Below the pieces are notes generated by a model. It was given only the letters and a program-made list of their open reading frames with translations, had not been told where the DNA came from and did not search any database. This document shows positions 33,261 to 42,755 of a stretch of DNA of 64,000 nucleotides, one piece after another. The translations under genes were made by a program, and so were the position numbers. Source of the stretch: Nocardioides eburneiflavus. GTDB taxonomy: Bacteria > Actinomycetota > Actinomycetes > Propionibacteriales > Nocardioidaceae. The stretch covers positions 1,054,001 through 1,118,000 of the forward strand of contig NZ_SRRO01000001.1 in assembly GCF_004785795.1 (NCBI RefSeq), read 5' to 3'. How positions within the stretch are numbered: the first letter of the stretch is position 1; each line of letters opens with the position of its first letter.

Positions 33261-33430
33261 GTCGAGTCGGCGCGTCCTGACGGCTCAGCTCCATCGAGTC
33301 GGCGCATCCTGACGGCATAGCCCCATCGAGTCGGCGCATCCTGACGCAGGATGCGCCGACTCGACGCGTGTCCGGGGCGAGGATGCGCCGACTCGACGCG
33401 TTTCCGGGGCGAGGATGCGCCGCCTCGGCG
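33261..33430. repeat. Symmetric array: three 32-bp units and three inverted units
   Basis: CGGCGC(A/G)TCC occurs at 33268, 33300 and 33332. Its complement GGATGCGCCG occurs at 33349, 33381 and 33413. Both series have an exact 32-bp period and mirror each other about 33345. Each unit sits in a GTCGAGTCGGCGCATCCTGA-like context; the last unit is diverged. The array fills the gap before the ABC ATPase gene and could fold into one long stem or several hairpins. Confidence 0.85.
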
Positions 33431-33441
33431 AGAATCGTGAG

Positions 33442-34140
33442 GTGACCCAGACCCCCGCTGTCGTCGTGCGCGGCCTCCACGTCCGCTTCGGCGACGTCGA
33501 GGCCGTCGCCGGCGTCGACCTCACCGCCGAGGCCGGGCAGGCGACCGCGCTGCTCGGGCGCAACGGTGCCGGCAAGTCGACCACGATGAAGGTCCTCGCC
33601 GGCGTGGTCCCGCCGACCGCCGGGGAGGTGACCGTCGCGGGCCACGACGCCGCCACCGACGCGCTCGGCGTCAAGCGGTCCGTGGGCTACTGCCCCGACG
33701 TCGGCGGCCTCGTGCCGCGGGCCACGCCGTGGGAGCACCTCCAGCTCAGCGCACGCCTGCGCCGGATGCCCGACTGGGAGGAGCGCGGCCGCGACCTCCT
33801 CGAGCGCTTCGAGCTCGGCGACGTCGCCCACCGCGTGGTCGGCGGCTTCAGCCACGGCATGAGCCGCCGCCTCAGCGTCGTCCTGGCGTCCCTCCACGAG
33901 CCCGCGGTCCTGCTGCTCGACGAACCGTTCGACGGCGTCGACCCGATCGGCGTCGACGCGACGCTCGAGGTGGTCGCCGACGCCCGCGCCCGCGGCGCGT
34001 GCGTGCTGCTGTCCACCCACCTGCGCGACCTCGCGCTCGAGGCCTGCGGAGAAGCCGTCGTCCTGCGCGGCGGCAACCGCGTCGCCGCGATGCAGGCGGG
34101 CGAGCTCACCGGCGAGGCCTACCGTGCGCTCCTCGACTGA
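33442..34140 (+). CDS. ABC transporter ATP-binding protein
   Basis: A 232-residue ABC ATPase. Walker A LLGRNGAGKST (about residues 38-47), signature-like FSHGMSRRLSVV and Walker B VLLLDEPFDGVD are present; the signature deviates from LSGGQ. GTG 33442 is chosen because an upstream in-frame ATG (33415) lies inside the repeat array. It overlaps the membrane gene by 17 bp and powers that exporter. The substrate is unknown. Confidence 0.85.
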   Translation: MTQTPAVVVRGLHVRFGDVEAVAGVDLTAEAGQATALLGRNGAGKSTTMKVLAGVVPPTAGEVTVAGHDAATDALGVKRSVGYCPDVGGLVPRATPWEHLQLSARLRRMPDWEERGRDLLERFELGDVAHRVVGGFSHGMSRRLSVVLASLHEPAVLLLDEPFDGVDPIGVDATLEVVADARARGACVLLSTHLRDLALEACGEAVVLRGGNRVAAMQAGELTGEAYRALLD

Positions 34141-35662
34141 CCACTGGGTCGACGCCGCGCGCGACACCGGGCACCTCCTCGGCTTCCGCGCGCGGACCGT
34201 ACGCCGCCGTCGGGCCAGCGCCTTCGGCCTCGCCGTGGTGCTCGCGCTGACGGCCGCCTTCGCCCTCGCCCCGAGCGGCTTCGACGTCGGGTCCGTCGGC
34301 TCGCCCGCCGTGGAGCGCGCGCTGGCCACGGTCCAGGGCAACCTCGGCGCGGCGTTCGCCGGCTTCCTGCTGCTCGCCATCAGCTCCGCCATGGGCAGCG
34401 GCGGCGGCCGCGAGCTCCTGTCGCGCAATGAGGCGGCCGTGCACCCGATCAGCGCCGTGACCGAGCACCTCGGCGCGCTCCTCCTCGCCCCGGTCAACCT
34501 CGCCTGGCTGGTCCAGGTGTGGGGCCTGCTCGCGGTGACGGCACTGGTCGCCCCGTCCGGCGGCCTGCTGGGCGCGCAGGTCGTCGTGCTCGCGTGGGTC
34601 CTCGCGGCGACCGCGCTCGGGCAGGCGGCCGGCTGGGCGGTCGAGGGCGTACGCCGCACGCCGCACGGCGTGCTCGTCGTACGGTCGGTCGGTGGAGCGG
34701 TCGTGGCGGTGCTGGCCTGCCTCCACCTCGCCGGGCTGCTCGGTGCGCTCGTACGGTCCCTGCCGACGACGTGGGTCGCGGCGACGGCGCAGACCTCGGA
34801 CTGGCCGCTCGTCGTGGTCCTCCTGCTCGCTCTCGCCGTCGTGGGGGTCGTGGTCGGCGCCACGCCCGCCAGGTGGGCGCTGGGCCTGCCGCCGCGCGAG
34901 GAGCTGCGCGTGCAGTCCGGCGTGCACGAGGCCCGCCACGCCCCCGAGCCGCGCTGGGGGTCGCCCGACCGGGCGCTGCTGCGGCGTCTCGACCGCGACT
35001 CGGTGTGGCGCTCGGTCGGCATGCGTCGCGGGTTGATGGTGCTGGGCCTCGGACCGGGCCTGGTCGCGCTGGTCGCCGGGCTCGAGTGGAGCTCGGTGAT
35101 GGTGCTGCCGGGACTCACCGCGAGCGGTGCCGCGCTGCTCTTCGCCGTCAACGCCTGGTGCCTCGACGGCAAGGGGATGGTCTGGCGCGAGACGCTGCCG
35201 GTCTCGTCGGCCGACGTGTTCGACGTACGCACCCTCGTCGTCGCCGAGTGCATGGCGGTCGTCTCCGGGATCACGGTCGTGCTCGCGCTGCTGCGCAACG
35301 GGCTGCCTCCGGTGGTCGTCGGGGTCGCGGTGCTGTCGTGCTGGCTCGTGGTGGTCGTGCAGGTCCTGGCGATCGTGATGACCTGGTCGGTGCGCTCGCC
35401 GTACGGCGTCGACCTGTCCTCGCCGCGCGCGACGCCCGCGCCGCACGCCGCGATGGCCGGCTACGCCGGACGGCTCTCGGTCGTCACCACCCTGACCGCG
35501 CTGCTCTTCACCGGCCTCTCCGCGGTCCCGTGGGCGTGGGTCCCGGCCGCCGCCGCGCTGCCGTTTCTGGCGTGGTCGACGCGACGGCTCGTACGCGCCC
35601 GTCGCCGCTGGCTCGTCGGGGACGAGCGGGCGCGGGTCGTGCTGACGGTCGCAGCCGTCTGA
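34124..35662 (+). CDS. ABC exporter membrane subunit (ABC-2-like)
   Basis: A 512-residue protein with about 12 hydrophobic segments and no soluble domain with motifs. The GTG start lies inside the ATPase gene, so the two are translationally coupled and probably form one exporter. The protein shows only general similarity to ABC-2-type or actinobacterial exporter permeases, and I cannot name its substrate. Confidence 0.65.
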   Translation: MRSSTDHWVDAARDTGHLLGFRARTVRRRRASAFGLAVVLALTAAFALAPSGFDVGSVGSPAVERALATVQGNLGAAFAGFLLLAISSAMGSGGGRELLSRNEAAVHPISAVTEHLGALLLAPVNLAWLVQVWGLLAVTALVAPSGGLLGAQVVVLAWVLAATALGQAAGWAVEGVRRTPHGVLVVRSVGGAVVAVLACLHLAGLLGALVRSLPTTWVAATAQTSDWPLVVVLLLALAVVGVVVGATPARWALGLPPREELRVQSGVHEARHAPEPRWGSPDRALLRRLDRDSVWRSVGMRRGLMVLGLGPGLVALVAGLEWSSVMVLPGLTASGAALLFAVNAWCLDGKGMVWRETLPVSSADVFDVRTLVVAECMAVVSGITVVLALLRNGLPPVVVGVAVLSCWLVVVVQVLAIVMTWSVRSPYGVDLSSPRATPAPHAAMAGYAGRLSVVTTLTALLFTGLSAVPWAWVPAAAALPFLAWSTRRLVRARRRWLVGDERARVVLTVAAV

Positions 35663-35775: not shown

Positions 35776-36480
35776 TCAGCGGGTGACCGCCACCCTGGCG
35801 GACCGGGCCCGCCCGCCGAGCGAGCGGACCGCGAGACGGCGCAGGTCGTCGAGAGAGCGTACGGCGACCCGCTCCGCGCGGCGACGCGCAGCGGGTGCCT
35901 GGACGGCGGTGCGCAGCAGCGCGGCCTCGGCCTCGAACCACGCAGCGACCTCGGCGAGGGCCGGGTCCGGGAGGCGACCGACCGCGTCCACCTGGACCAC
36001 GACCTGGAAGGCGGCCGTCGCGGTCCGGCAGGTCGCGCAGGCGTCGCCGACCGCCAGCGCCCGGTTGGTGGGGCGGGCGCGGGTGCCGGGGCCGATGACG
36101 ACGACCTGCACCGCGAGCGCCGTCGCGGTGCAGTCCCAGCAGTCCTGCGTCCAGGCCGACGCCACGTTGTCGAAACGCGCGGACGCGGGACCGGGCACGT
36201 AGAGCACCTGCAGCACCGCGCTCTCGCCGCGGCAGGTGTGGCAGGCCGTCGTGGTCGTGGCCACGGCGTCGGCCTTCAGGGCGGCGTTGCGGACCGTGAC
36301 CTCCCTGACGACTAGTTCGCGGTCCTCGCGCCGCTGGTCGCTGGGCTGGGCGCTGGCGACCACGTCGAGGTCACGTCGCTCGGCCCCCGACCCACCCGAC
36401 CCGCCCGGTCGCGCGTCCGCCGCGCCGGCCAGCAGCAGCACCGCCACGACGGCGTGGACGGCCGCTGCGCGCGGGGTCAC
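35776..36480 (-). CDS. Secreted protein with three CxxC motifs
   Basis: A 234-residue protein. Residues 8-25 (VHAVVAVLLLAGAADA) look like a signal peptide, though the charged n-region is short. Three CxxC motifs follow: ACHTCRG, DCWDCTA and ACATCRT, each followed by a hydrophobic strand (AVLQVLYV, AVQVVVIG, AFQVVVQV), so the middle looks like a repeated module. The C-terminus is an Arg-rich helix. I do not recognise a named family. GTG 36480 overlaps the stop of the M50/ATPase gene (GTGA), tying it to that system; a redox, metal-binding or peptide-capturing role outside the membrane is a guess. Confidence 0.7.
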   Translation of the reverse strand: MTPRAAAVHAVVAVLLLAGAADARPGGSGGSGAERRDLDVVASAQPSDQRREDRELVVREVTVRNAALKADAVATTTTACHTCRGESAVLQVLYVPGPASARFDNVASAWTQDCWDCTATALAVQVVVIGPGTRARPTNRALAVGDACATCRTATAAFQVVVQVDAVGRLPDPALAEVAAWFEAEAALLRTAVQAPAARRRAERVAVRSLDDLRRLAVRSLGGRARSARVAVTR

Positions 36481-38771
36481 GGCGAGCCACCGACGGAGAA
36501 GTTGTCGGCCACCGCGGCCGCGATGTCGACCAGCGCGTCCCGGGTGCGCCGGTGCAGGGACGACATGTCGGTGAGCGCGCCCGGCTCGAGCGCGTCGTCC
36601 CACGGGACCGTGACGACCCGGGCGCACCGCTTCTCGAAGTGCCGCCGCATCGGCTCCGGTGGCTCGCTGCCGCGCCGCTCGGCGTTGACCACGACCACGG
36701 TCCGCGCCACGAGGTCCTCGAACCCGTGCTGGTCCATCCAGTCCAGCGTCAGCGCACCCGCCCGCCCGCCGTCGAGCCCGGCCCGCACGACCAGCACGAC
36801 CTGGTCGGCCTCGGTCAGCAGGCCCTGGTTGGCGCTGTCGAGGATGCCGGTGCCGGTGTCGAGCAGGATCACGTTGTAGAACCGGTCGAGCAGCCCGATC
36901 AGCCGGTGGTAGTCGTCTCGGGCCAGCGCCATCCCGATGCCGGGGTCGTCGTCGGACGCGAGGACCTCGAGCCGCGACTCGACCGCCTGGGAGGTGTAGC
37001 GGCGCAGCGCGGCGTAGGTCTCGATGCCGTGGAGGTCACGCAGCACGTCCGTCACGGTGCGGTCGTGCGGCGGGGCCACCCGGTGGGCGAGGTTGCCCGC
37101 GTCGGGGTTGGCGTCGACGGCGATCACGCGGTCGCCGCGCAGCAGGGCGAAGGTGCTGCCGAGCGCGAGGGTGATGGTCGTCTTGCCGACCCCGCCCTTG
37201 CGGCTCATCACCACCACCCGGCGCGAGCCCTCGACGGGCGTGCGCAACCGCCGCTCGAGCTCGCGCAGCCGCTGCTCCGGCAGGCTCGGCCCCGGATTGA
37301 GCAGGTGCCCGCTGCCGCGGTAGACGGCGCTGCGCCAGCCCTGCGTCGGCACCGGCGCCGGCGCGGCGTACATCACCGCGTCGGTGAAGTCGGCCGCCGA
37401 GACCACCGGGGGAGGGTCGGGCGAGAGGGTGGCGAGGCCCGTCAGGTCCTCGTACGGCTCCCGGGCATGGGCCGCGATCCGGTCCCGCGCGAGCAGGACG
37501 AGGGTGGTCCCGAGCCGCCAGAAGGCCAGCGCCGCACCGAGGATCGGCAGCAGCAGCAGGGCGATCGACACCACGGCCAGGGCCATCGCGGGCCAGTCCC
37601 GGCGCTGCCATGCGACGTCGAAGACGAGCTGCTGCAGGCGTACGCCCTCGCGCCCGCGCTCGAGGAACTCCGGCAGGTACCAGATCGCCCAGCCCATCGC
37701 GGCGACCAGCAGCGGCACCACGACGAGGACCCAGCCCGTCACGAAGCGACGCGTGCGCGGGCGCAGCTCGCTCACCCGCGGGTCGGCCGGGTGCCCGGGT
37801 CGCAGGCTGCGCAGCACCGGGCCGACGCGGGCGAAGAGGTCGGGTACGCCGGCGAGGTCGGACAGCACGTAGTAGCCGTCGAAGCGCACCACGGGGATCA
37901 GCTGCTGCAGCATCTGCAGCTGGAGCACGAGGGCGGTCAGGAGCAGGATGCCGCTGCCGGTGGCGAGGTACGCCCCCGCCAGCACGAGCACGGTGAGCAC
38001 GTTGAAGTGGAGCCCGCCGAGGTCGGTGCGGACCCGGCCCACCCGGCCGATCCGGTAGGAGTCGGTCACGTCGGTGTAGAACGCCGGGAACACCAGGTAG
38101 AGCCCGAACCCGATCTCGCCCGGCCGCGCCCCGCCGTAGCGGCAGGCCGCCGCGTGGCCCAGCTCGTGCACGAGGGCCGAGGCCGTGAGCAGGGCATAGA
38201 TGAGGAGGGCGATCGTCGGCGTCGCGAAGAGCTCGCCCACCGCACCCCAGAAGTCGCCGCGGGTCAGCAGCGCCACGTCGGCGACGACCAGCGTGACGAG
38301 CGCGAGCACCACGACGGGCGGCCAGAACAGCGGTGCCAGCCAGGCCGCGACCCGGTCGACCAGCGGCGCCGGCACCAGCGTGCCCTTGGCCGTCAGGGCA
38401 AGCAGCGGTCGCGCCCGTACGGCACGCGTCGGTTCCGGCGCCTCGTCGGGGACGACCAGCCCGAGCGGCTCCAGGCGGGTGGTCACGAGGTGGGCGAGGC
38501 CGTCGGCCGTCAGGTTCCGTCCGTACGCCCGGCTCACGTCGTCGGCCACCAGCTCCGCGGGACGGGGCGGCTCGACCGCACGGACGACGAGGTGCAGCAG
38601 CTCGGACAGCTGCACCACCTGGTCGTCCACGCGCCGCACCAGGAACGCCGGGTCCTTGAGGCCCGAGCCCTGGACCGGACCCAGGAACTGCAGGCCGCGC
38701 GCCTGACGCCACCGCTGCCCGGTGGCGGGCGGTGGCGCGGTCCTCCGGTGGTCGGCAGTCGTCAGGTCCAT
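36477..38771 (-). CDS. PqqD-like / M50 metalloprotease / MinD-EspI-like ATPase fusion
   Basis: A 764-residue protein with three parts. Residues 40-105 (FLVRRVDDQVVQLSELLHLV, then VTTRLEPLGLV) resemble the PqqD/RRE domain in front of putative peptide zinc metalloproteases. Residues 140-425 hold membrane helices with the zinc motif HELGH (202-206) and FDGYY (297-301), as in site-2 proteases. Residues 515-764 form a SIMIBI ATPase with KGGVGKTT (525-532) and VDANPD (552-557), most like MinD/EspI proteins of type VII secretion loci. I know of no standard protein joining M50 and this ATPase. It lies just downstream of two small peptide genes, its likely substrates. ATG 38771 lacks a clear ribosome binding site. 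Confidence 0.85.
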   Translation of the reverse strand: MDLTTADHRRTAPPPATGQRWRQARGLQFLGPVQGSGLKDPAFLVRRVDDQVVQLSELLHLVVRAVEPPRPAELVADDVSRAYGRNLTADGLAHLVTTRLEPLGLVVPDEAPEPTRAVRARPLLALTAKGTLVPAPLVDRVAAWLAPLFWPPVVVLALVTLVVADVALLTRGDFWGAVGELFATPTIALLIYALLTASALVHELGHAAACRYGGARPGEIGFGLYLVFPAFYTDVTDSYRIGRVGRVRTDLGGLHFNVLTVLVLAGAYLATGSGILLLTALVLQLQMLQQLIPVVRFDGYYVLSDLAGVPDLFARVGPVLRSLRPGHPADPRVSELRPRTRRFVTGWVLVVVPLLVAAMGWAIWYLPEFLERGREGVRLQQLVFDVAWQRRDWPAMALAVVSIALLLLPILGAALAFWRLGTTLVLLARDRIAAHAREPYEDLTGLATLSPDPPPVVSAADFTDAVMYAAPAPVPTQGWRSAVYRGSGHLLNPGPSLPEQRLRELERRLRTPVEGSRRVVVMSRKGGVGKTTITLALGSTFALLRGDRVIAVDANPDAGNLAHRVAPPHDRTVTDVLRDLHGIETYAALRRYTSQAVESRLEVLASDDDPGIGMALARDDYHRLIGLLDRFYNVILLDTGTGILDSANQGLLTEADQVVLVVRAGLDGGRAGALTLDWMDQHGFEDLVARTVVVVNAERRGSEPPEPMRRHFEKRCARVVTVPWDDALEPGALTDMSSLHRRTRDALVDIAAAVADNFSVGGSP

Positions 38772-38833
38772 CGCTCTGGTGTGCTCGCTCTGGTGTGCTC
38801 TGTGTGCTCTGGGTGTGCTCGCTCTGGTCGGGT
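38772..38833. repeat. Short degenerate tandem repeats before the fusion gene
   Basis: CGCTCTGGTGTGCT occurs twice in tandem, followed by shorter variants (CTGTGTGCT, CTGGGTGTGCT, CGCTCTGGT). It occupies the leader of the M50/ATPase gene, where a ribosome binding site would be expected. Confidence 0.7.
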
Positions 38834-38845
38834 CGGTGACGGCGA

Positions 38846-38870
38846 CGGATGCGCCAGAGCAACGCATCCG
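38846..38870 (-). terminator. Hairpin downstream of peptide gene 1
   Basis: CGGATGCG (38846-38853) pairs with CGCATCCG (38863-38870) across a 9-nt loop, 28 bp after the peptide stop on the minus strand. It may limit read-through into the M50/ATPase gene. Confidence 0.45.
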
Positions 38871-38897
38871 CCGCCGGGTCCCTCGGGCGGTCGACGC

Positions 38898-39116
38898 CTA
38901 CGGCATCTGCGTCTGGACAGAGGCCAGGTACTGCAGGGCGAGTGCTTCGGCCTGCGAGTTGATCGTGGCCGCGTTGACGGCGAGGGCGAGGTTGACGCCC
39001 ACGATGTTGGTGACGTTGACGCACGCGAACTGGCAGCTCAACGTCTCCCGGCGGGGCAACGGCGTGGCCGTCTCGGCGTCGAGGTCGGCCATGACGAAAT
39101 CGGGTCGTCGGACCAT
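38898..39116 (-). CDS. Small peptide 1, LPxRETL paralogue (candidate precursor)
   Basis: A 72-residue peptide. The acidic N-terminal part DFVMADLDAETATPLPRRETL is followed by a tail rich in Asn, Ala, Val and Gln (NIVGVNLALAVNAATINSQA) ending QTQMP. It aligns with small peptide 2 over LD-E-T-LP-RETL and N-NIV--N---A-NAA. Two Cys (SCQFACVN) follow the motif. It has no signal peptide. A strong GGAGGTG ribosome binding site precedes the ATG. The layout of a conserved leader-like part and a variable tail suggests a substrate of the neighbouring PqqD/M50 protein. It is too short for a known enzyme. Confidence 0.75.
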   Translation of the reverse strand: MVRRPDFVMADLDAETATPLPRRETLSCQFACVNVTNIVGVNLALAVNAATINSQAEALALQYLASVQTQMP

Positions 39117-39165
39117 GCCGGTTCACCTCCTCTCCTGCGGGTCGGGCCGGAGGGCTGGGTCGCCT

Positions 39166-39197
39166 GCGTGGCCTCCCCCTCCGCAGGGAGGCCACGC
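39166..39197 (-). promoter_or_regulatory. 12-bp hairpin between the two peptide genes
   Basis: GCGTGGCCTCCC (39166-39177) pairs perfectly with GGGAGGCCACGC (39186-39197), 8-nt loop. It lies 7 bp after the stop of peptide 2. It could stabilise the first cistron or end part of the transcripts. Confidence 0.55.
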
Positions 39198-39204
39198 GAG
39201 GACG

Positions 39205-39399
39205 TCAGCCCTGGTTGACGACGATCGTCTGGCCGGCGGCGCTGTTCGCGACGGCGTACAGGGACGCGGCGTTGAGGGCCATCGACGAGTTGTTCGCCAC
39301 GATGTTGGCCCAGTTGTAGTTGCCGAAGGTCAGCGTCTCCCGGGTCGGAAGAAGCTCGGTGCGCTCGGTGTCGAGCTCGGCGAATGAGAGTTCCCGCAT
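39205..39399 (-). CDS. Small peptide 2, LPxRETL paralogue (candidate precursor)
   Basis: A 64-residue peptide: FAELDTERTELLPTRETL, then an Asn/Ala/Ser-rich tail (NYNWANIVANNSSMALNAAS) ending TIVVNQG. It has no Cys and no signal peptide. It is a paralogue of peptide 1 with the same motif spacing, and both genes have GGAGGTGAAC upstream of the ATG, so the ribosome binding region is conserved too. It is the first gene after the SARP-box promoter. Candidate precursor of a processed or assembled peptide; the product is unknown. Confidence 0.75.
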   Translation of the reverse strand: MRELSFAELDTERTELLPTRETLTFGNYNWANIVANNSSMALNAASLYAVANSAAGQTIVVNQG

Positions 39400-39439
39400 G
39401 GTGTTCACCTCCCCCCGTGGTGCGGTGGTCTGGCGGCAC

Positions 39440-39482
39440 ATCGGAGCGGACCGTGCGTGACTCGCGCGTGATCGATGCGTGA
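39440..39482 (-). promoter_or_regulatory. SARP-type promoter: three heptamers with an 11-bp period
   Basis: Read on the minus strand, TCACGCA, TCACGCG and TCACGCA begin at 39482, 39471 and 39460, exactly 11 bp apart. Exactly 8 bp after the last heptamer lies TCCGAT (39445-39440) as -10. This spacing is the known rule for SARP-activated promoters. It would drive the peptide genes and is next to a SARP/BTAD gene. Confidence 0.75.
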
Positions 39483-39653
39483 TCGGCCGAGGACTAACCG
39501 GGACCGGTCCAGACGTCGACCCCAATCGTGGGGATAACCGGGCTCCGCACCGCCCGGAGGGGTGTCCTTCGGCCAAGGTCTGTCGGCAGGGGAGTGCCCG
39601 CAGCCCGAATCGGTGGCAGCGGGACAGGGAGAGGGAGATCTCGGTGATCGACC

Positions 39654-41216
39654 ATGCCGGACACCAGGCACGCCACTGATCGTGGCCTGAGCCTCCTCGG
39701 CGGGTGGGAGCTCGTCGAGGACGGCGAGAGCATCGCGCTCGGGGGGCGCGAGCAGCGGCTCTGCGCCCTGCTCGCCCTGACCGGCGCCCGGGCGCGGGCC
39801 CAGGTCGCCGGCACGTTGTGGCCCGAGAGCACCGACGCCCGCGCCCTCGCGAGCCTCAGGCGGGCGCTCGCGCAGACCCGCGACCGCTGCCCGGGGCTCG
39901 TCGTCGCGGACCGGACGAGCGTCGGCCTCGCCCCGGACGTCGTCGTCGACGTCCACGTGTTCCGGGCATCCGCGGCGCAGGCCGGTGAGCCCGGCGCGGG
40001 CGCCGCCCTGCTCGCCATGCTGGCGGGGGAACCGCTGCTGCCCGGCTGGTACGACGAGTGGGTCGGGGGCGAGCGCGACGAGCTCGAGCGGCTGCGCGTC
40101 GATGCCCTCGAGCACCTCGCCCGCGGTGCGCTCGAGCGCGGCGACACCGGGCTCGCCGAGGACGCCGCGCGCGCGGTCGCCCGGATCGAGCCGTGGCGCG
40201 AGTCCGCCAGCGAGCTGGTCATCCGCGGGCTCCTCGGCCGGGGCGACCGGGCCGGGGCCGTGCGTGAGCTCGAGCGCTATCGCGAGGTCCTGCGGGTCGA
40301 GCTCGGGGTCGTCCCGTCACCCGCCCTGGTCGCGCTGGTCGACGCGCCGGAGCCGGTCCCCGTCCCGGCTCCCGTCCCGCTGGGCCGCGCGGTCCCGGTG
40401 GTCGTCCCGGCCCAGCGTCGGGCGCCGGTGCAGGAGACCGTCGAGCCCCCTTCGCGCAGTGCCGCGCTGTCGTCCCCCCAGCCACCGCCCCCGCCGGACC
40501 CCACGCCCCCCACCGGGCCGGCCGGCCTGACCGCCCGAGCGGCCGCTGCCCGGCTCGCGGCGGGGGCGGTCCTCGTCATGGCCGCGTCGCTCGCGATCGC
40601 CAACCTCGGACCCGGCGCGGAGCAGGAGCCGCCGTCGTCGGTCCCCGACATGGCGGCGCAGGAGCAGGCCGCGGGTGGGGTGGTCGCCAAGGCGGTCCGA
40701 CAGGTGCTCGTGCGTCCGGTCGCGGCAGCGGACGGGGCCGCCGCCTTCGTCGTACGGGCCACCCGGCGCCCGGCCCGTGTCCGGGTCGAGGTCGCTGACG
40801 ACAGCGGGAGCAGTGTCGTGCGCAGCGTCCTGGTCCGCAGCAGGGACGGCCGGCGGCTGGTGGTCACCGGGCTCGACGGCGGCACCTACGAGTGGTCGGC
40901 CACCTCGCCGACCGCGTCCCCGGTGACCGGCGAGGTCGAGGTCTCCGAGGTGCCGTCCGGGCTCGTCGCGGCACCGGAGCCGAGCGTACGGACCACGCCG
41001 ACTCCCAGCCCCACTGCAAGTCCCATGTCGGTGCCCACCGTGACCGCGACCCCGCAACCGACCCCGCAGCCGACCCAGCAGCCGACCCAGCAGCCGACCC
41101 AGCAGCCCAGTCCGCAACCCAACCCGCAACCCAACCCGCAACCCAGTCCGACGCGTCCCGGCCCGTCGAGCGGACCCACCGATCCCGGCACGCAGGACCC
41201 GGGCCTGGTGGGGTGA
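39654..41216 (+). CDS. Membrane-anchored SARP/BTAD transcriptional regulator
   Basis: A 520-residue protein. Residues 12-95 are an OmpR-like winged helix and 98-228 a bacterial transcriptional activation domain (LLPGWYDEWVGGERDELERL), together a SARP. A Pro-rich linker leads to one membrane helix (about 297-318, LAAGAVLVMAASLAIANL). An outside domain of roughly 100 residues follows, then a Pro/Thr/Gln tail of short repeats (QPTQQPTQQP). Normal SARPs are soluble, so this one looks like a one-protein transmembrane sensor. It is divergent from the peptide genes, whose promoter has SARP boxes. Confidence 0.85.
   Translation: MPDTRHATDRGLSLLGGWELVEDGESIALGGREQRLCALLALTGARARAQVAGTLWPESTDARALASLRRALAQTRDRCPGLVVADRTSVGLAPDVVVDVHVFRASAAQAGEPGAGAALLAMLAGEPLLPGWYDEWVGGERDELERLRVDALEHLARGALERGDTGLAEDAARAVARIEPWRESASELVIRGLLGRGDRAGAVRELERYREVLRVELGVVPSPALVALVDAPEPVPVPAPVPLGRAVPVVVPAQRRAPVQETVEPPSRSAALSSPQPPPPPDPTPPTGPAGLTARAAAARLAAGAVLVMAASLAIANLGPGAEQEPPSSVPDMAAQEQAAGGVVAKAVRQVLVRPVAAADGAAAFVVRATRRPARVRVEVADDSGSSVVRSVLVRSRDGRRLVVTGLDGGTYEWSATSPTASPVTGEVEVSEVPSGLVAAPEPSVRTTPTPSPTASPMSVPTVTATPQPTPQPTQQPTQQPTQQPSPQPNPQPNPQPSPTRPGPSSGPTDPGTQDPGLVG
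41059..41150 (+). repeat. Coding tandem repeats (QPT, then QPN/QPS)
   Basis: Nine-base units like CAGCCGACC and later CAACCC-type units encode the Pro/Gln-rich end of the BTAD regulator. Such repeats can change length by slippage and probably form a flexible tail through the cell wall. Confidence 0.7.
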
Positions 41217-41228
41217 GGAGGTACCGCG

Positions 41229-42755
41229 ATGACCAGCCCGAGCACGACCCCGCCAGCCCCGCGCGCACTCGCCGGCCCACTCGCCTGCCTCGTCGCGGGG
41301 CTGCTCGCGGTCGCGACCCTGGTCGTCGTTCCGGTCGTCCCCGCCGCCGGTGCGAACGACCGGGCCGATCGGTGGGCGGGCTACCGGATCCCCTCGACCG
41401 GCCGCGCTGCCGGCGGCTGGATCGGTGGCTACCGGCTCGGCCGGACGCCCGTCTTCGTGATCACCCCGGAGCGTCGGCCCAACCGCGCCGGCTTCCGGCG
41501 AGCCGATCCCACGAACGACCTGGCGGGCCGCCGCGGCCCCTCCCGGCGGGAGACCCAGCGTGCCGCGTGGATCCTCTCCAAGTACGGCGGCTACCGGGAG
41601 GCGCGGCAGGCAGCCGCGGTCGACGCCGCGGTGCTCCACCTGCTCGGTGACCGTGAGTGGCGCCTCGGTGGTGCCCGCGGCGCAGCACGTGTCGGCGCGA
41701 GCGGCGATCCGGCGACGGTGCGCCGCTACGTACGCCTGATGCTGCGCGACTCGCGGGCGAGCGCAGGTCGCCACCGGGTGGCCGTCGTGCCGGCCACGGC
41801 GGACGTCGGCGGGGTGACGGCCGTGACGGTGCGCGTGACCGACGGTCACGGAGGCCCGGTCGCTGGCCTGCCCGTGACCGTGACCTCGCCCGACGGAGGC
41901 ACGTCCGAGCCGGCCGCCGGGCCGGTCGCCGCCGTGACCGGTGACGACGGACGCGCCGTGGTGCGCCTCGCCGCTCCGGTCGCCGGCTGGCGCACGGTCG
42001 TCGCCCGGGTGGGCCAGGTCCCCGAGCACCGCCTGCGCGTACGCGGGGCGGACCGCCGCGGTCAGGCGGCCGTGGCGGAGGGCGGCGTACGCCGGGTCGT
42101 CGTCGCGAGCGCACGGGTCGCGGTGCGGGGCACGCAGACCCTCTCGATCGCGGCGGATCCCGGCCAGCTGGTGGTCGGTTCCCCAGCCCGTGTGGTGGCG
42201 ACGGTCGGCGGGGACGGGTCGAACCGGATGGCCATCGCGTCCCTGCACGGGCCGTTCTCCTCGGATGGAGGGGCGCACTGCAGTCCGGCACCAACGGCGG
42301 AGGTCTCGGCGATGGTGACGGCCGACGGCGCCTATGCGATGCCGGCAGTCGCGCCCGCCGGCGGCGGGTACTTCGCCTGGCGCGTGGTCGTCAGCGGGAC
42401 CGACGCCAGCACGCCGGTGGCCTCCTGCGGAGCGGTCGTCAAGGTGCGTGCCAAGTCGGCCGCCACGCTCGACTGGGCGCCTGCGGTCCCCGCCGCCAAA
42501 GGCAACGTCACGGCGACGGCGACTGTCTCCGGCATCCCCTTCCCGGCGCCGGTCGACGTGCGGATCACGCTCTACCAGGACGGTGGCTGCGGGTCGTCGA
42601 TCGACGTCGACGAGGTGAGGAGGTTCGGCAACGGCGCGATCTCGAGCACCTTCTACGTCCCCGCAGCAGGCACCTACTCGTGGCGCGCCGAGGTCGTTCC
42701 CGGTGAGCTGTGGGTGGGCACGCCCCCGCCCTGCCTGCCGATGACCGTCTCCTGA
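41229..42755 (+). CDS. Secreted multi-domain protein, probably Ig-like
   Basis: A 508-residue protein with a signal peptide (LACLVAGLLAVATLVVVPVV, then AAGA). The mature N-terminal part has a helical region (RAAWILSKYGGYREARQAAA) of the sort seen near thioester or surface-adhesion domains of actinobacteria; then three or so beta-rich modules, one with the pattern VTVRVTDGHGGPVAGLPVTV. It has no LPxTG signal, so anchoring is unclear. It starts 12 bp after the BTAD gene with GAGGAGG, so the two are cotranscribed, linking it to the peptide system. Function unknown. Confidence 0.6.
   Translation: MTSPSTTPPAPRALAGPLACLVAGLLAVATLVVVPVVPAAGANDRADRWAGYRIPSTGRAAGGWIGGYRLGRTPVFVITPERRPNRAGFRRADPTNDLAGRRGPSRRETQRAAWILSKYGGYREARQAAAVDAAVLHLLGDREWRLGGARGAARVGASGDPATVRRYVRLMLRDSRASAGRHRVAVVPATADVGGVTAVTVRVTDGHGGPVAGLPVTVTSPDGGTSEPAAGPVAAVTGDDGRAVVRLAAPVAGWRTVVARVGQVPEHRLRVRGADRRGQAAVAEGGVRRVVVASARVAVRGTQTLSIAADPGQLVVGSPARVVATVGGDGSNRMAIASLHGPFSSDGGAHCSPAPTAEVSAMVTADGAYAMPAVAPAGGGYFAWRVVVSGTDASTPVASCGAVVKVRAKSAATLDWAPAVPAAKGNVTATATVSGIPFPAPVDVRITLYQDGGCGSSIDVDEVRRFGNGAISSTFYVPAAGTYSWRAEVVPGELWVGTPPPCLPMTVS

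Follow-up and report, generated by a model that had tools for sequence, protein, structure and literature searches.

A compact gene cluster in Nocardioides eburneiflavus encodes an intramembrane protease, two short precursor peptides and a protein with three CxxC motifs, and these almost certainly work together. Genes for the three kinds of protein co-occur across genomes, the precursors carry a common acidic leader, and sequence comparison further reveals a repeat common to the peptide cores and the CxxC protein, together with a beta-type periodicity in the conservation of the cores. The cluster lies in what is called here the window, the whole stretch of 64,000 nucleotides that was analysed, and the preferred reading, to which a probability of about 0.52 is assigned, is that of a dedicated system for peptide maturation and surface assembly. 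A literature search of open-licence papers returned no description of this gene set or family.

Layout of the locus and sequence features of its proteins

The host is a soil actinobacterium with a genome of 5.0 Mb, and the named relatives of the locus proteins are mostly labelled Nocardioides, with one labelled Nocardia. The genes pep1, pep2, fusion and CxxC follow one another in this order on the minus strand, while the SARP and Ig-like genes diverge on the plus strand (Table 1). The ATG codons of pep1 and pep2 are preceded by GGGGGGAGGTGAACACC and GGAGAGGAGGTGAACCGGC, respectively; the two peptides, reading LPTRETL and LPRRETL, are 38% identical in alignment, and the core of pep2 starts with CxxxC, whereas pep1 contains no cysteine. 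The fusion is counted from the ATG at 38771-38769, the longest ORF (796 aa) beginning at 38867. The start of the CxxC gene overlaps the fusion stop as GTGA, and a gap of 12 bp separates the SARP gene, whose product has a hydrophobic stretch from residue 301 and a P/T-rich tail, from the Ig-like gene, which is probably co-transcribed with it. All the parts named in an earlier note made from the letters alone (two peptides, fusion, triple-CxxC protein, SARP and Ig-like protein) are present in the sequence, and the overlap, the gap and the other details listed there were confirmed.

Table 1. Features of the cluster, with positions counted from the first nucleotide of the window
Feature	Position	Strand	Remarks
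pep1 precursor peptide	39205-39399	-	64 aa, ATG; leader MRELSFAELDTERTELLPTRETL followed by N/A-rich core
pep2 precursor peptide, paralogue of pep1	38898-39116	-	72 aa, ATG; leader end LPRRETL
PqqD-like / M50 intramembrane metalloprotease / MinD-type ATPase fusion	36477-38771	-	764 aa
PqqD-like (RRE-type) presumed leader-binding domain	38418-38696	-	about residues 58-150 of the 796-aa ORF
HELGH zinc-protease motif	38154-38168	-	H, E, G, H invariant in 16 aligned orthologues
MinD/ParA-type ATPase domain of the fusion	36480-37370	-	CbiA 4.7e-10, AAA_31 9.2e-9 (Pfam)
KGGVGKTT of the ATPase domain	37176-37199	-	invariant in 16 aligned orthologues
CxxC protein	35776-36480	-	234 aa, GTG start; signal-like N-terminus by eye
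Divergent SARP-type regulator	39654-41216	+	BTAD domain 2.3e-13 (Pfam)
Ig-like protein	41229-42755	+	508 aa, signal-like N-terminus

Among the seven proteins scanned, Pfam cut-offs are reached only by the fusion, through its ATPase part, and by the SARP, whose BTAD domain is the one by which such regulators are recognised. The Ig-like protein falls just below the cut-off for Big_1 (34.2 bits against 34.9), and pep1, pep2 and the CxxC protein, like the relatives scanned, match no Pfam or NCBIfam family at cut-off.

Homologues of the fusion number 826 among the 8000 candidates scored. Its best NCBIfam match is the daptide peptidase model daptide_HExxH (E 1.3e-30), which aligns from model position 21 and gives 106.8 bits against an equivalog cut-off of 300, with four relatives of the fusion scoring 95-110 bits; the second is the YydH/LiaK epipeptide protease (4e-15; 56.1 bits against a cut-off of 225). 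The Pfam PqqD model is found in 4 of 12 aligned members (best 4.9e-4) and has no match in the window fusion itself. The PqqD-like label, weak by Pfam, is supported by the NCBIfam daptide peptidase alignment. The motifs HExGH and RFDGY are invariant in the 16 aligned orthologues. The general layout of an RRE-dependent site-2 protease is present, with a PqqD-like domain and an HExxH membrane protease in one chain beside leader peptides, the PqqD component being backed by Pfam in the four members mentioned, to which the window protein does not belong. A sequence search of the PDB with the protease or its N-terminal domain gave nothing significant (PqqD 3g2b at E 1.0). Matches to BasB, at E 0.02, and to MamC, whose 19.2 bits (E 0.0011) compare with a cut-off of 100, lie far under the cut-offs and were set aside as chance.

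Co-occurrence, precursor leaders and architectures

Searches with the protease, the peptide profile and the CxxC profile each pick out 27 of the 293 genomes examined from the order, and the three sets are identical. The three genome searches were independent of one another's positions, although the profile rows were taken from five (peptide) and four (CxxC) of these 27 genomes. The genomes cover 6 of 37 genera in three families and are related, so that they do not represent 27 independent events. The listed peptide matches all adjoin the protease gene, as do the CxxC matches except for one extra match in genome G101; in the host genome, the peptide profile matches only pep1 and pep2, and the CxxC profile likewise matches only at the locus. 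The earlier note had proposed searching for the fusion together with LPxRETL peptides, counting against itself fusion homologues that never have such peptides nearby. The outcome was the opposite: LPxRE peptides accompany the fusion at all 17 fusion loci examined, and the same 27 of 293 genomes are involved. Its suggestion that the peptides would be the substrates and would be moved outward is well supported by this outcome.

The protease part was further detected in 79 of 394 genomes at the level of the class and in 30 of 296 at that of the phylum; 21 and 7 of these, respectively, are weak hits whose best E exceeds 1e-30. In all, 111 neighbourhoods (11 + 100) were taken, covering part of the class and phylum matches. 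Two of them were dropped as ATPase-only hits (L107, L108) and seven for want of a complete protease ORF (L229, L230, L244, L267, L270, L274, L275), and L285-L293 served as weak-hit controls, leaving 93 neighbourhoods that form, with the window, a set of 94 loci.

At 89 of these 94 protease loci across the phylum, a precursor is encoded whose acidic leader is of the LPx[RK]E type. By a scoring rule requiring the leader motif with three or more acidic residues ahead of it, the same strand, a distance of at most 3 kb and an ORF of at most 460 aa, precursors were found at 77 of 94 loci against 0 of 9 controls. The remaining 12 came from looser looks aimed at the misses (4 + 5 + 2 + 1), one of which also gave unrelated matches in controls L288, L291 and L292. 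The five loci at which no precursor was found are L236, where the contig edge lies 70 bp upstream, and L268, L273, L283 and L284. The leader takes several forms, including ELDTERTELLPTRETL in the window, LTDEELxxxxGEELPDREAM, ELDAESAELLPGREAL and LSxEELxxxxxTALPDKEVV. Matches to the leader motif number 135 near the protease gene and on its strand, some of them chance ORFs, against 15 nearby on the opposite strand and 34 in the remaining sequence, which accounts for 0.84 of the 1.37 Mb.

Three architectures can be distinguished. In type A (17 loci), the ATPase is fused to the protease and the CxxC gene is separate; this gene was detected at 10 loci by the scoring rule, at 4 more by a looser look and at all 17 by the profile. 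In type B (34 loci), the CxxC module is fused at the C-terminus of the protease and the precursor is usually 220-450 aa long, and the precursors examined in full (L104-L106) contain two core-like stretches each. In type C (43 loci), neither part is fused, and 14 loci have a separate CxxC gene by profile. The profile of separate CxxC proteins matches the fused modules with E values down to 5e-27, which indicates homology. In an IQ-TREE phylogeny of 97 rows (the 94 loci and three weak-hit rows), the fused-CxxC type forms one clade (100/100), while the ATPase type needs two changes, the ATPase-less L200 being sister beside the larger clade; the tree is subject to long-branch warnings. Scored by hydropathy, a further hydrophobic segment lies C-terminal to the M50 domain in 0 of 17 type-A and 33 of 34 type-B proteins (some type-B segments being the CxxC strands themselves), in 9 of 10 where the CxxC gene is separate and in 24 of the remaining 33, a pattern that would place the ATPase inside the cell and the CxxC module outside.

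The earlier note had treated the whole locus as one system. The peptides, the protease and the CxxC protein stand as its core, but the ATPase, the SARP and the Ig-like protein do not belong to it, as 77 of the 94 loci have no fused ATPase. Judged by their distribution, the ATPase and the SARP are markers of one branch: a divergent SARP homologue is present at all 17 type-A loci and at the sister L200, against 1 of 76 others. The SARP is long (520-584 aa) and has an Ig-like partner at 10 of the 17 type-A loci, these ten Ig-like homologues coming from the window and nine other loci of the genus, and its ORF measures 250-297 aa at the other 7. The ten best unfused relatives of the ATPase part are 39-49% identical and come from other actinobacteria. 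The closest ATPase relatives (65 loci) were considered as members of the system and rejected; the DNA examined around them gives no M50 match, and they are therefore taken as unfused ATPases, one of which (L037) has WXG100-like genes nearby, as seen by eye. The ABC transporter at 33415-35662 was also left out of the system. Of the 17 ATPase-type loci, 10 have homologues of it nearby, the ATP-binding hit at L195-L197 being a different protein with 30-32% identity, and other genes separate the ABC genes from the cluster in several relatives.

A repeat shared by the peptide cores and the CxxC protein

The three motifs of the CxxC protein (CHTC, CWDC and CATC at residues 80-83, 114-117 and 148-151) are exactly 34 residues apart. 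An AlphaFold2 model of the protein (pLDDT 90.7, pTM 0.82) predicts paired strands at 67-78/84-95, 100-112/118-129 and 134-146/152-163, recurring every 34 residues, plus two helices, with a CxxC motif between the two strands of each pair. On the basis of this model, the protein is read as a three-rung beta-solenoid. Among 150 re-aligned Foldseek candidates for the model, the highest VIA Z (7.2) belongs to the CsgA fibril; that a fold is missing from the Foldseek and VIA lists does not show it to be new, and no new fold is claimed.

The repeat common to the peptide core and the CxxC protein is NxAxAxN..[S/C]..[S/C]xAxAxAxQ. It can be followed in NAAVALNVLSDNSTAYANAEQ, from the peptide of L237, and NLAIAINENCVLCDTLASAYQ, from the CxxC protein of L235, which agree in N0, A2, A4, N6, A16, A18 and Q20, the peptide having SxxS where the CxxC protein has CxxC. 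This likeness was assessed with a profile of 24 non-redundant peptide cores (57 loci), in which positions 9 and 12 were zeroed, against non-redundant CxxC sequences, 11 of them separate and 12 fused. In 22 of these 23 sequences, the best window of the S/C-blind profile coincides with the CxxC register, although only 2 or 3 windows per 207-423 lie in that register. The summed score is 197, whereas 1000 column permutations average -70 (sd 28) and never reach it; the pattern used to collect the cores demanded N/D at 0, N/D/H at 6, small residues at 14-18 and Q at 20, and these columns are thus favoured. An initial peptide profile built from 6 non-redundant cores of one class was weak (16 of 19 best windows in the CxxC register, best p 0.02) and was replaced by the broader one. 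An hhalign comparison of peptide and CxxC protein gives the same register with a probability of 3.4%.

The conservation of the core was analysed without that collecting pattern and has a period of two, with a power of 18.7 at 180 degrees (0 of 5000 permutations) against 0.46 at helix angles (p 0.98), which, at the level of sequence, is a beta signature.

Presence of the core and of the CxxC module also goes together. Among the 90 neighbourhoods that extend 1.5 kb or more downstream, a repeat core, defined by a profile score above 8, is accompanied by a CxxC module in 59, and 23 have neither, a few of the latter scoring 6-8; agreement thus amounts to 82 of 90 (Fisher p 1.5e-13, ignoring kinship). 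Four loci have the core without the CxxC module (L232, L241, L246, L249) and four the reverse (L207, L225, L236, L268), among which precursors were seen at L207 and L225 in other looks and a contig end truncates L236. The loci with neither are spread over several clades of the tree, and at three of these 23 (L273, L283, L284) no precursor was found. Since core type and CxxC module go together, the module is considered to belong to the repeat-core cargo, and the leader and protease can carry other cargo.

Proposed mechanism, rival readings and known systems

In the preferred reading of a dedicated maturation and surface-assembly system, the N-terminal PqqD-like domain would bind the acidic LxxxELDxExxELLPxRE leader of both precursors, and the M50 domain, of the site-2-protease type, would cut near LPxRE[TA]L, binding and removal of the leader by these two domains being very probable. 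The remaining core of roughly 40 residues is likely to leave the cell, and it probably forms a strand-arc-strand unit, which would fold outside as a rung with inward Asn/Ala/Ala/Asn and Ala/Ala/Ala/Gln. The cores may then, with about even odds, stack on the presumed solenoid of the CxxC protein, built of three rungs of the same repeat with the arc serines changed to cysteines, and this protein would act as an anchor or nucleator. The Ser-to-Cys change in its arcs may lock the solenoid by disulfides or metal. A true fibre as the end product is somewhat less likely than not. In the branch of the window, the cytosolic MinD-type ATPase fused to the protease may drive or regulate the process, and the membrane-anchored SARP may report on the surface.

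A less likely alternative holds that the peptides are soluble, exported bioactive molecules such as bacteriocins or signals that do not assemble, the CxxC protein being a core-mimicking receptor, immunity or capture protein. By name, the protease is closest to the daptide and epipeptide proteases, whose products are hemolysins (PMC10036551) and an antimicrobial (PMC10885120), several branches have quite different cores, and the AlphaFold2 model of the lone peptide is a helix, though of low confidence. The conservation periodicity of the core, in contrast, is that of beta structure and not of a helix, and the repeat is common to core and CxxC protein and in register. Furthermore, inspection by eye of the individual genes in the neighbourhoods read revealed no modification enzyme that is conserved, and the separation of the ABC genes in several relatives also argues against this view.

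The CxxC protein could instead be a thiol or metal factor that oxidises or metallates the peptides or the protease, in the manner of the DsbA-like TmcD, as its motifs, the CxxxC of pep2 in this branch and the analogous TMcin clusters, in which an S2P protease accompanies a CXXC protein (PMC13252029), might suggest. This is improbable: pep1 has no cysteine, neither a thioredoxin domain nor any other is found in the CxxC protein at cut-off, and its model is a paired-strand repeat with two helices rather than a thioredoxin, so that a thioredoxin-like oxidoreductase was rejected. The secreted triple-CxxC protein of the earlier note retains its three motifs and, by eye, its signal-like N-terminus, but by its sequence it is built from the peptide-core repeat and does not look like an accessory enzyme. 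Slightly less probable again is a true RiPP pathway with split genes, in which the peptides are scaffolds or carriers modified by enzymes encoded elsewhere; PqqD-like domains mark RiPP pathways (PMC10036551), and a methyltransferase-like gene, identified by eye, adjoins the SARP gene in L103, but it was not seen in the other neighbourhoods read, and the lack of a conserved modifying enzyme noted above weighs against this reading as well.

The peptide profile matches at least 8000 sequences, clustered at 90%, and among the 120 matches listed, the names, where given, are "hypothetical protein", so that a function has still to be assigned to a large actinobacterial family and to the protease dedicated to it. 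If the preferred reading of maturation followed by surface assembly is true, it joins leader-guided processing of the RiPP type with functional surface assemblies. The LPxRE leader and the protease would then be a simple means of exporting peptides from Gram-positive cells, and the core would be a short beta-arch unit that is open to design and comes with its own nucleator.

Among known systems, the daptide pathway includes MpaP, which removes the leader and is termed RRE-dependent (PMC10036551). The fusion resembles daptide MpaP/DapP in being a single-chain RRE and M50 peptidase of Actinomycetota beside short leader peptides, and differs in the LPxRE leader, a core that is not of the C-terminal Thr type, the CxxC partner and the fused ATPase. 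No daptide decarboxylase, aminotransferase or methyltransferase was found in the window cluster by Pfam and NCBIfam, nor did reading neighbourhoods by eye reveal a conserved one. For EpeP, cleavage and export of its peptide have been proposed (PMC10885120). The likeness to EpeP/YydH/LiaK lies in an M50 protease that handles a peptide, the score being far below the cut-off as given above. Epipeptides require a radical-SAM epimerase, and none was found in the window cluster by translation, Pfam or NCBIfam. Chaplins and rodlins are small actinobacterial surface amyloid proteins made with signal peptides; the peptides described here are likewise small actinobacterial proteins but have LPxRE leaders, and no Pfam chaplin domain is matched by the window peptides or the relatives scanned. 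The unfused MinD-type relatives of the ATPase part are presumably EspI-like, and the ATPase shares the MinD type with EspI-like proteins, from which it differs in its fusion to a peptide protease.

TMcin systems (TmcA/TmcP/TmcD) likewise combine an S2P-clan leader peptidase with a CXXC protein but, as described in PMC13252029, have a DUF3267 protease, a DsbA-family TmcD, a transmembrane-helix peptide and an ABC exporter of their own. In the main text of a structure-based RRE discovery study (PMC12710340), the terms M50, metallopeptidase and daptide are absent. The present system is classed with RRE-guided S2P peptide maturation, its protease half being like MpaP and EpeP but under both cut-offs, and the window cluster shows no modifying enzyme. 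To our knowledge, the proposed stacking partner has no counterpart in daptide, epipeptide or TMcin systems.

For such a partner, the comparison is with curli, in which CsgA and CsgB share a beta-arch repeat with the kernel N-$-Psi-$-Psi-$-Q and CsgB nucleates (PMC10192328). The major subunit and the nucleator of curli share one strand-arc-strand repeat with an inward N-x-Psi-x-Psi-x-Q pattern (PMC10192328). The peptides and the CxxC protein share their repeat by sequence, and its predicted beta-arch form is suggested by the conservation period of the cores and by the model of the CxxC protein. The present system differs in having one repeat per short peptide, S2P maturation, a Gram-positive host, CxxC arcs and Ala where conserved positions face inward. 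A CsgG-type pore was not seen, and Pfam curlin has no match in the window peptides, the CxxC protein or the relatives scanned. The assembly half would, by analogy, work like CsgA/CsgB without curlin homology by Pfam. Tentatively, the system may embody, for Gram-positive bacteria, an independently evolved curli-like principle, in which single-rung beta-arch peptides undergo RRE-guided cutting and export and polymerise on a CxxC solenoid into an unnamed, widespread actinobacterial surface fibre or sheath, the leader and protease constituting a new general export route that serves unrelated cargo elsewhere.

Leader peptides and their cores

One family of the class (neighbourhoods L253-L263) carries a protease like that of the window together with an acidic leader ending in LLP[DE]RxTL, while the cores that follow differ in kind (NSPGSNN...); no CxxC module was found at these loci. 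At three others (L279-L281), cysteine-containing cores are borne on leader peptides, for example VPIGVAANVCGVDANVLAQ, and no CxxC partner was found there. By eye, these cysteine cores bear a slight likeness to chaplins.

When pep2, the second precursor peptide of the window, was compared with its nearest orthologues, the core was found to begin with CxxxC in the window's genus (CQFAC, CYVGC, CQIGC) and also in L200 and L234, the motif being absent from L103 and L201-L203.

Genes near the cluster and elsewhere

The two ABC transporter genes of the window are convergent with the CxxC gene, and homologues occur near the cluster in 10 of the 17 loci whose MinD-type ATPase is fused to the protease, with other genes intervening in several. 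Approximately 1.7 kb from the protease at L245 (family f22, genus g55) lies a gene which, judged by eye, we take to be rodlin-like. No Pfam match was obtained for the 713-aa frame of L276. In genome G101, whose cluster is located elsewhere, the CxxC search returned an extra match within a 423-aa open frame.

Positions of the features
Feature	Locus	Position	Strand	Remark
ABC transporter ATP-binding protein and permease genes	window	33415-35662	+	overlapping each other
Rodlin-like gene (presumed)	L245	4287-4745
713-aa ORF, low-complexity TGGNGGKAVG-type	L276	4038-6179	-	adjoins M50 gene
Methyltransferase-like gene (by eye)	L103	13724-14938	+	adjoins SARP regulator gene of ATPase-type locus
Extra CxxC match	G101, C4	27291-27821
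Unfused MinD-type ATPase gene	L037	7853-11146		Streptomyces
WXG100-like genes (by eye)	L037	2136-2845		Streptomyces

Relatives of the ATPase domain

Because genes that by eye are WXG100-like lie near the unfused ATPase of L037, an origin of the ATPase domain in a type VII secretion setting is suggested.
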